A stretch of DNA of 34,704 bases, from contig CAMDJX010000007.1 in the NCBI GenBank assembly GCA_945900735.1, forward strand, positions 1-34,704. The letters run 5' to 3'. This DNA comes from Acidimicrobium ferrooxidans DSM 10331 (GTDB lineage Bacteria; Actinomycetota; Acidimicrobiia; Acidimicrobiales; Ilumatobacteraceae). The notes under the pieces were generated by a model. That model had not been told where the DNA came from. It ran no database searches and saw only the letters and a list, made by a program, of their open reading frames with translations. The position numbers and the translations under genes are program-made. Shown piece by piece: positions 5,995 through 11,928 of this stretch; within the stretch, counting starts at the first letter, position 1, and each line of letters starts with the position of its first letter.

Positions 5995-6544
5995 CAGTGC
6001 TTAGTGTTGCCGAACGGAAAATTGCAATGGTGGATACCGAGCAAGTTTTTTGTAATTTTTTGGTTTTGGGGGGTGAAAAAGGGCAATTTTGGGAAATATT
6101 TTTAAAATATTTTTCCGGTCTTTTTCGCCGGTTTTCGACCCTCTCAAACCCACTGTTTACGGGGGTGGCGAGGCTCAAATCCTTACCCGTATTGGAGTGG
6201 ATTTTCGCACGCTTGAAGCCCTTACTGGATAAGGAAATGGCCCAAAATCTCAAAATTGAGGCCCCGCGAAACCCAATACCAGTATGGATTTTAGCAAATT
6301 CATTGGGTTTTTGCCCGATTTCAACCCAGGAAAAACACTCAAAACAACACAACATTTTTTTATCAAAAGTTTGCTCAAAATTCTTCTCTTTCTGAACAAA
6401 AATCGATGAAGAAAATTGGTGACAACGGACTTCGCAGCAAGTGCTGAAAGGACGCAAAACGTTTTCAATGCTTGCAATTTGATTTCAGACCTATTCAGAT
6501 AGTGAATGAATCAGTTTCCGATTCCGAGAAAGTTAGGTAAGCAA
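5995..6544. other. AT-rich intergenic region between phoH and HU
   Basis: About 0.5 kb with no convincing ORF, strongly A/T-rich relative to flanks, containing a perfect AAATATTTT-T-AAAATATTT inverted repeat at 6094-6112. Confidence 0.7.
6094..6112. repeat. perfect 9-bp-arm AT inverted repeat
   Basis: AAATATTTT (6094-6102), T, AAAATATTT (6104-6112). Confidence 0.85.
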
Positions 6545-6829
6545 ATGACAAAAGCAGAGCTCATAGATGCAGTTGCTCAGAAGTCCGGAGTGTCGAAGGC
6601 AGATGCCGAACGCACTATCGCAAGCTTCTTTGAACTGGTCGTAGCCTCAGCGATTAAAGGTGAGAAAGTTGCATGGCCGGGCTTCGGTTCGTTCAGCACT
6701 TCAAACCGCAAAGCTCGTACCGGCCGTAACCCACAAACGGGTGCACCGGTTCAGGTACCAGCATCTACAGCAATGAAGTTCACTTCAAGCTCAACGCTGA
6801 AGAGTGAATTAAACCCAAACCGTAAGTAA
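6545..6829 (+). CDS. HU-family nucleoid protein
   Basis: MTKAELIDAVAQKSGVSKADAERTIASFFELV...GFGSFSTSNRKARTGRNPQTGAPVQVPAS. ATG at 6545 preferred over 6506. Confidence 0.95.
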   Translation: MTKAELIDAVAQKSGVSKADAERTIASFFELVVASAIKGEKVAWPGFGSFSTSNRKARTGRNPQTGAPVQVPASTAMKFTSSSTLKSELNPNRK

Positions 6830-6837
6830 TACCTATC

Positions 6838-6843
6838 AAGGAG
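6838..6843 (+). promoter_or_regulatory. Shine-Dalgarno AAGGAG for the 49-aa ORF
   Basis: AAGGAG, 7 nt before ATG 6851. Confidence 0.8.
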
Positions 6844-6850
6844 AAATATC

Positions 6851-7000
6851 ATGGCAGCAAAAAAGCGCAAGAAGGCCGCTAAGAAGGCCCCAGCAAAGAA
6901 GCGTAAGGCAGCAAAGAAGACAGCTAAGAAGGCAACGAAGAAGGCAGCGAAGAAAGCTCCTGCCAAGAAGCGTCGCAAGAAGGCTGCAAAAAAGAAATAA
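6851..7000 (+). CDS. 49-aa Lys/Ala-rich histone H1-like basic protein (not in supplied ORF track)
   Basis: Manual translation: MAAKKRKKAAKKAPAKKRKAAKKTAKKATKKAAKKAPAKKRRKKAAKKK*. Strong SD upstream and hairpin terminator downstream. Confidence 0.85.
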   Translation: MAAKKRKKAAKKAPAKKRKAAKKTAKKATKKAAKKAPAKKRRKKAAKKK

Positions 7001-7037
7001 GGCCTTAGCCGAAAATAATTCGGTTCGGAACACTGTA

Positions 7038-7069
7038 AATCGGGGGGCTTCGGCCCCCCGATTTTTTTT
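7038..7069 (+). terminator. intrinsic terminator after HU/H1-like genes
   Basis: AATCGGGGGGC-TTCG-GCCCCCCGATT, 11-bp stem with UUCG loop, followed by a T-tract. Confidence 0.95.
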
Positions 7070-7084
7070 ATGTCCAATAATGTT

Positions 7085-7699
7085 TTAAGCGAAGTCTCCG
7101 TTGAGCCAGCTTGCAGGCAATTGCGCCAAGTCATCTGGGGTATCAATGTCGAGAGCAAGTTGTTCGTTGCGCACAATGCGCACTGGTAAGCCCAAGCGGG
7201 CTGCCTCAGCCTGATGGGCGGCAAAACTGCCTGGCCCGTAATGAAACGTAAACCCGCTGCGGGCGGGGATCACGAGCACATTGGTGCCGTCCTCGTGGCG
7301 ATCGGGAACGATGGTCACGGTTGTGGCGGCCAACTGGCTGTCGACAACCGAAAGCAGTTGTTCGGCGAAGGGCAAGTCGCTGTGCGCAACTAAAACCCAG
7401 TCGCGTTTGAACTGTGCTGCATCCACCCCGCACGCAACCGCGGCATTGAGGCCGGGGGAGGTTTGGCGAATAACGAGAGCGCCTCGTTGGCGCGCCCACT
7501 GAGCAATGTCATCGTTGTCGCACACCACAAACGTGTCGACACCGAGCGCCGCTTCCAACAGCCCGCTTGCTGTGAATTCGGCAAGTGAGGCTCGGTTCTC
7601 TTTTGACAGCACCGACTCCAACCTGGCCTTGGCGTCTGTGAAGCCCTTAATGGGCAGTACAACAGCGCCGCCATGTAATGAGGAAACGGGAGAAGCCAC
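7085..7699 (-). CDS. cofC: 2-phospho-L-lactate guanylyltransferase (F420 biosynthesis)
   Basis: VVLPIKGFTDAKARL...VVCDNDDIAQWA...HSDLPF...FHYGPGSFAAHQAEAARLG...LALDIDTPDDL. Confidence 0.88.
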   Translation of the reverse strand: MASPVSSLHGGAVVLPIKGFTDAKARLESVLSKENRASLAEFTASGLLEAALGVDTFVVCDNDDIAQWARQRGALVIRQTSPGLNAAVACGVDAAQFKRDWVLVAHSDLPFAEQLLSVVDSQLAATTVTIVPDRHEDGTNVLVIPARSGFTFHYGPGSFAAHQAEAARLGLPVRIVRNEQLALDIDTPDDLAQLPASWLNGDFA

Positions 7700-11148: not shown

Positions 11149-11928
11149 GTGCGCGAAGATGGTGCGGTGGAAGATGTGTCGTCGCAAGCGCTGAGCGAAG
11201 CGCGCACGTTGTTGGCGCAATCTCTGCGCGTCACCGTGTTTACCGGCGCGGGCATTTCTACCGATTCGGGAATCCCCGATTATCGCGGCCCCAATGGTTT
11301 GTGGACACGTAACCCGAAGGCCGAAAAAATGTCGTCGCTCAGCCACTATTTGGAAGATCCGGAGGTGCGCCAGTTGGCGTGGCAAAACCGCGTGCGTTCG
11401 CCGGCGTGGGATGCGCAACCAAACGACGGGCATCGCGCACTGGTGAAGCTGGAGGAGCGCGGCGTGTTGGTTGCGTTGGTGACGCAAAACATTGACGAGT
11501 TGCATCAGCAAGCAGGGCATCAACCGAACAACGTTGTGGAAGTGCATGGCACCATGCGTTATTCGCGGTGCTGGAGTTGTGCCGACCGTCGACCAATGCA
11601 AGAAACGTTGCAACGCGTGCGCGACGGCGAAATTGACCCGGCGTGTTTGTTATGTTCTGGCATTTTGAAAAGCGACACCATCAGCTTCGGTCAGTCGTTG
11701 GTGCCAGAAGTAATCGAGCGTGCCATGTGGGCGAGTGAGAACTGCGATGTGTTGCTTGCCGTTGGCTCGAGCTTGTCGGTGTTTCCTGCTGCCAACGTGG
11801 TGCCGCGGGCGAAGGCCGCTGGTGCGCGGGTGATCATCATTAATGGTGAGCCAACCAAGATGGATCAGTACGCCGACGTGTTGCTCGTGGGCAAGATTGG
11901 CGATGTACTTCCCGCCGTTATTGGGTAG
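11149..11928 (+). CDS. NAD-dependent deacylase (sirtuin)
   Basis: FTGAGISTDSGIPDYRGPNGLW, TQNIDELHQQAGH, CxxC...CxxC zinc site, VGSSLSVFPAA. Confidence 0.95.
   Translation: MREDGAVEDVSSQALSEARTLLAQSLRVTVFTGAGISTDSGIPDYRGPNGLWTRNPKAEKMSSLSHYLEDPEVRQLAWQNRVRSPAWDAQPNDGHRALVKLEERGVLVALVTQNIDELHQQAGHQPNNVVEVHGTMRYSRCWSCADRRPMQETLQRVRDGEIDPACLLCSGILKSDTISFGQSLVPEVIERAMWASENCDVLLAVGSSLSVFPAANVVPRAKAAGARVIIINGEPTKMDQYADVLLVGKIGDVLPAVIG

Follow-up and report, generated by a model that had tools for sequence, protein, structure and literature searches.

A predicted two-gene operon of a tailless HU and a small lysine-rich peptide in Ilumatobacteraceae, with attached and separate HU tails in the Acidimicrobiia

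The gene pair described here is probably a two-gene operon in which a tailless HU is followed by a free H1/HupB-tail-like, DNA-condensing peptide that would act in trans with HU, a reading that we draw from comparison of sequences and hold with fair, though not full, confidence. The second gene, a small ORF of 49 codons, can on comparative grounds be taken as established as a conserved protein-coding gene, because nucleotide differences among its relatives are synonymous in one frame and its length changes by whole codons. At the level of the class, the Acidimicrobiia appear to have moved the tail of HU between an attached and a separate form at the same chromosomal place.

Results

The window analysed is a 34.7-kb contig from a genome of 1.64 Mb in 136 contigs, whose family was taken as Ilumatobacteraceae, class Acidimicrobiia. 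The HU gene (HU1), the linker open in the same frame, the 49-aa ORF, its AAGGAG Shine-Dalgarno (SD) motif and the UUCG terminator described in the initial annotation were all confirmed, coordinates included (Table 1). HU1 belongs to the HU/IHF family (PF00216, Bac_DNA_binding, positions 1-90 of 90, E=1.2e-30) and ends in LNPNRK directly before its stop (TAA, 6827-6829), with no lysine-rich tail on the same polypeptide of the HupB/HupS kind. Its start is at 6545 and not at 6506, the position given by the mechanical ORF list, since several relatives have a stop just 5' of the equivalent Met (open frame of 96 aa). A divergent gene for a PhoH/PIN protein lies 5' of HU1, while the pair is followed by CofC on the opposite strand and then by GpsA, the latter judged by sequence and not by a model; HU1 stands between PhoH and CofC in 12/12 family members examined in larger stretches, usually with GpsA next.

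Table 1. Features of the HU1 locus in the window
Feature	Position	Strand	Evidence or remark
SD-like AGGT 5' of HU1	6535..6538	+	sequence
HU1, 94-aa tailless HU-family protein	6545..6829	+	Pfam PF00216; PDB HU/IHF homologues; orthologues in PhoH-HU-CofC-GpsA synteny
Linker, 21 nt, in HU frame and open here; frame not conserved in relatives	6830..6850	+	
SD of the small ORF, AAGGAG	6838..6843	+	7 nt 5' of ATG; conserved in genus
Putative 49-aa free H1/HupB-tail-like peptide; K/A/R/P/T	6851..7000	+	sequence, relatives, synonymous differences
Intrinsic terminator stem-loop, UUCG loop, then T run	7037..7064	+	stem AAATCGGGGGGC-UUCG-GCCCCCCGATTT; dominant stem in RNA fold

The codons of the linker (TAC CTA TCA AGG AGA AAT ATC) hold no stop in the HU frame and lead directly into the ATG at 6851 of the small ORF, which closes with TAA at 6998-7000 and encodes a 49-mer of net charge +28 that matches no Pfam or NCBIfam model. 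The initial annotation had placed a free H1-like protein behind HU, ahead of a shared terminator and on the same mRNA; selection on it as a protein is seen (below), and co-transcription is probable, judging from the spacing of the genes and the single terminator that they share. The estimated strengths of the HU1 and small-ORF SD sites are similar (-9.1 vs -8.3 kcal/mol, anti-SD assumed). Production of the peptide in excess, judged by SD strength, was considered and is unsupported, the sites being similar and the HU site usually slightly stronger. On the opposite strand, a 157-aa L/F/A-rich ORF (6751-7224, -) is most likely spurious, a mirror of the lysine and alanine codons. A Sir2-family deacylase is encoded 4.3 kb from HU1 (11149-11928, +), and HupS is deacetylated by CobB1 (PMC11229371); we claim no link between Sir2 and HU, as this neighbourhood is kept in the 3 tested members of the genus and was not seen in other family members.

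The same genome encodes a paralogue, HU2 (G000 contig 34, L002 1342-1749, -), approximately 39% identical to HU1 over the HU domain and provided with its own terminator and with a 47-aa K/A/P-rich tail fused to the HU polypeptide, as in HupB and HupS. Going by its genome, the cell has this tailed HU2 alongside the tailless HU1 and the free peptide gene, and the peptide therefore does not take the place of the sole HU tail. In another member of the family (G283, g42), only a weak HU2-like match (E 8.7e-15) was obtained, and HU1 was not found. A RidA/YjgF-like protein, recognized by eye on contig 31 of the source genome (L218 1468-1941, +), carries an N-terminal K/A/P-rich extension resembling HU tails.

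The DNA 3' of HU was scored in 87 distinct HU loci chosen by an Ilumatobacteraceae-type sequence motif. The initial annotation had allowed that the 49-aa ORF might not be conserved, and conserved it is: a lysine-rich ORF begins 1-67 nt past the HU stop in 78 distinct loci (78/87; Ilumatobacteraceae, acIV lineage), and in 68 of the 78 the linker shows an SD-like motif. The closed free ORFs range from 23 to 152 aa across the family loci, and the composition over the 78 loci is 43% K, 40% A, 8% P and 5% R. The nine loci without the ORF comprise five contig ends, one run of N inside the ORF, two loci where the tail is fused, both from the sister family f13, and one true absence within the family (L033, genome G027); a second true absence was seen at L035 (genome G026), which lacks the counting motif. 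The peptide is thus dispensable in G026 and G027, both of which keep HU1 without it. With the same detector, 39 distinct HU domains taken from the phylum's other classes yielded no free ORF (0/39), a result that also served as a false-positive control. Given its presence at 78 distinct loci of the family and at none of those outside the class, the pairing of HU with a basic ORF is not due to chance.

Runs of N or contig ends fall within or at the repetitive small ORF in L011/L080, L117, L018, L021, L024, L109 and L142, and the free-peptide gene is therefore probably undercounted in draft genomes. The HU loci L105, L115, L120 and L129 (titled Bifidobacterium breve) and L106 and L108 (titled Acidobacteria) belong with Ilumatobacteraceae, and the titles of these MAGs look taxonomically wrong.

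In protein-guided alignments, the fraction of synonymous differences was 0.88-0.94 in each set of close relatives, against an expected 0.26-0.29. Because an alignment of this kind favours a synonymous result, the count was repeated without gaps in five distinct genes of 84 nt, where the codons with a single difference were synonymous in 22/22 cases in the ORF frame and in 0/22 in each other frame, these being counts over pairs and not independent events. Purifying selection on one reading frame, as expected of a translated gene, is hence what was found.

Within the family, HU1 genes lack a tail and make up one supported clade (SH-aLRT 95), in which 64 have the free gene, 2 lack it and 5 were not scorable. 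Elsewhere in the class, a tailed HU with a separate basic ORF immediately after it occurs in members of nine other Acidimicrobiales families. In a second order, a free basic ORF, often beginning MV(T/P)(V/M)PPAK, lies 12-95 nt past many of the tailless HU genes. CofC was found near HU with a fused tail (families f13, f29, f39, f8, f127 and f131), near HU with both a fused tail and a free gene (f7, f14 and f29), near HU with a free gene in the second order and near bare HU; it also lies close to three HU genes outside the class. Four states are therefore present at the hup-cofC locus in the class, namely HU without a tail, HU with the tail fused, HU with the tail as a free peptide, and HU with both, and since CofC lies near HU in all four architectures, they would most simply be compared as versions of one orthologous locus. 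At least 19 changes of free-gene state are required on the HU tree, which was built from 90 columns and has many unresolved forks. We give about even chances to the proposal that a single orthologous hup-cofC locus switches between four conditions, the tail in cis, in trans, in both forms or absent, and that the trans tails go down to 23 aa.

As for origin, it is possible, and we offer it tentatively, that an ancestral tailed HU underwent lineage-specific fission and that the peptide is a former HupB-like tail, which would be compatible with a mechanism in trans. Outside the family, the closest relatives of HU1 (f13 and part of f29) agree with such an event, for they are CofC-linked and have a fused tail with no free gene, but free ORFs also stand beside tailless HU in the second order and beside tailed HU in the nine Acidimicrobiales families. 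Such a scatter calls for gains, losses or fusions on several occasions. Of what the initial annotation had anticipated, the existence of HupB-like fused and split states among relatives is borne out at the same locus, whereas fission is not established, since a tailed HU and a free ORF occur side by side in several families. Rooting the fused-to-free direction from the HU tree was discarded, as 90 columns do not resolve it.

Discussion

Both tailed HU proteins and free H1-like proteins, such as Hc2 and AlgP, are already known. As in mycobacterial HupB (Hlp/MDP1) and Streptomyces HupS, whose tails are disordered lysine-repeat segments, a HU domain is here accompanied by a disordered stretch rich in K/A/P/R and carrying PAKKA-like repeats (PMC5683647; PMC11229371). 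In those proteins the tail is part of the same polypeptide; here it is encoded separately, with a start and SD of its own, behind a tailless HU. The likeness of the free peptide to fused tails is one of composition, for low complexity bars a homology test. The chlamydial Hc2 and the H1-like proteins of Bordetella and Burkholderia, which bind DNA, are similarly free, lysine/alanine-rich and variable in size through intragenic repeats (PMC2848022), although Hc2 is longer (165-237 aa). The cut-offs of the Hc2/H1-like models (Pfam HC2 PF07382, NCBIfam NF038053 and NF038052) were not reached, the 49-mer of the window giving no match and relatives of 96 and 152 aa scoring 17-38 bits against cut-offs of 40-135. 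We know of no Hc2 or H1-like protein encoded as a partner behind hup.

Pseudomonas AlgP is likewise an H1-like lysine-rich repeat protein (PMC9239181); it belongs to a different phylum, is linked to polyphosphate granules, and is likened to our peptide by description and not by sequence. In a 2017 survey of HU, Acidimicrobiia were placed only in an actinobacterial clade described as being without C-terminal extension (PMC5683647), a picture to which the fused tails and free peptides found in this class now add. Among the open-access papers searched, none was found to describe a hup operon in which the tail has a gene to itself, or switching between cis and trans at one locus, and open-access work on HU, histones or nucleoid-associated proteins of Ilumatobacter and the Acidimicrobiia contained nothing on this operon.

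We propose that the two genes would be carried on one mRNA with separate ribosome entry, the first encoding the tailless HU and the second a free, disordered, lysine/alanine-rich peptide whose make-up resembles that of the C-terminal tails of actinobacterial HupB and HupS. Such a peptide may bind DNA (or RNA) non-specifically by its charge, neutralise the backbone and bridge or condense DNA bent by HU, and we infer condensation of DNA together with HU in trans, a role that the tail of HupB and HupS fills in cis. Truncating the HupB tail is reported to have abolished DNA affinity and decompacted the nucleoid (PMC11229371). Variation in repeat number by whole codons might tune charge and length with HU untouched, and the stoichiometry of HU1 and the peptide could be set independently. 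It is less probable, and in our judgement unlikely, that the translated protein acts mainly on RNA, ribosomes or polyphosphate and neighbours HU because both are highly expressed. Polybasic K/A peptides do bind to polyanions of every kind, AlgP, itself H1-like, has an effect on polyphosphate granules in Pseudomonas (PMC9239181), and the RidA-like protein of the same genome also has a K/A-rich extension, but the association is specific to HU, at a locus where sister families fuse such a tail onto HU.

It is highly improbable that the ORF forms an untranslated, repetitive 3' UTR or an antisense or regulatory RNA, even though its complexity is low and the region 6800-7075 folds slightly more stably than shuffled sequences (z -1.96, mostly owing to the terminator), since the differences are synonymous in just one frame and lengths vary by whole codons. 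A dedicated RNA element was likewise rejected, Rfam giving no match and the fold being unremarkable except for the terminator.

The initial annotation had further suggested that rare readthrough of the TAA would yield a HupB-like fusion, which is not supported and was rejected on the analysis of frames. Relative to HU, the ORF lies in frames 0, 1 and 2 at 41, 15 and 22 of the 78 loci, and readthrough of the HU stop would give a fusion in 26/78, the remainder being in the same frame behind a further stop (15/78) or out of frame (37/78). With only 26 loci able to fuse in this manner, the in-frame open linker is a trait local to one part of the family rather than a conserved device. The possibility, also raised there, that the TAA is a sequencing error was rejected, because the HU stop is TAA, TAG or TGA among relatives and the ORF frequently lies in another frame than HU. 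A leaky TAA or an assembly error concealing a true HupB-like fusion, for which one might cite the linker, open in HU's frame both in the window and at those 26 loci, is very improbable in view of the loci with shifted frames or further in-frame stops, the varying stop codon, the ORF's own start codon and SD, and the identical TAA arrangement in an independent genome (L003/L072).

The proposed two-gene operon brings to light a family of conserved, very small basic genes (23-60 aa among the freshwater acIV bacteria), which are easily overlooked by length cut-offs and, because of their repeats, break assemblies. To our knowledge, whether the lysine-rich tail of HupB or HupS works only when attached to HU is an open mechanistic question, and natural versions of one locus with the tail in cis, in trans, in both forms or in none would make it testable by swaps. 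If the switching proposed for the Acidimicrobiia is true, the short forms of the peptide would rank with the smallest nucleoid proteins encoded on a chromosome, and the function of the HU tail would need no covalent linkage.
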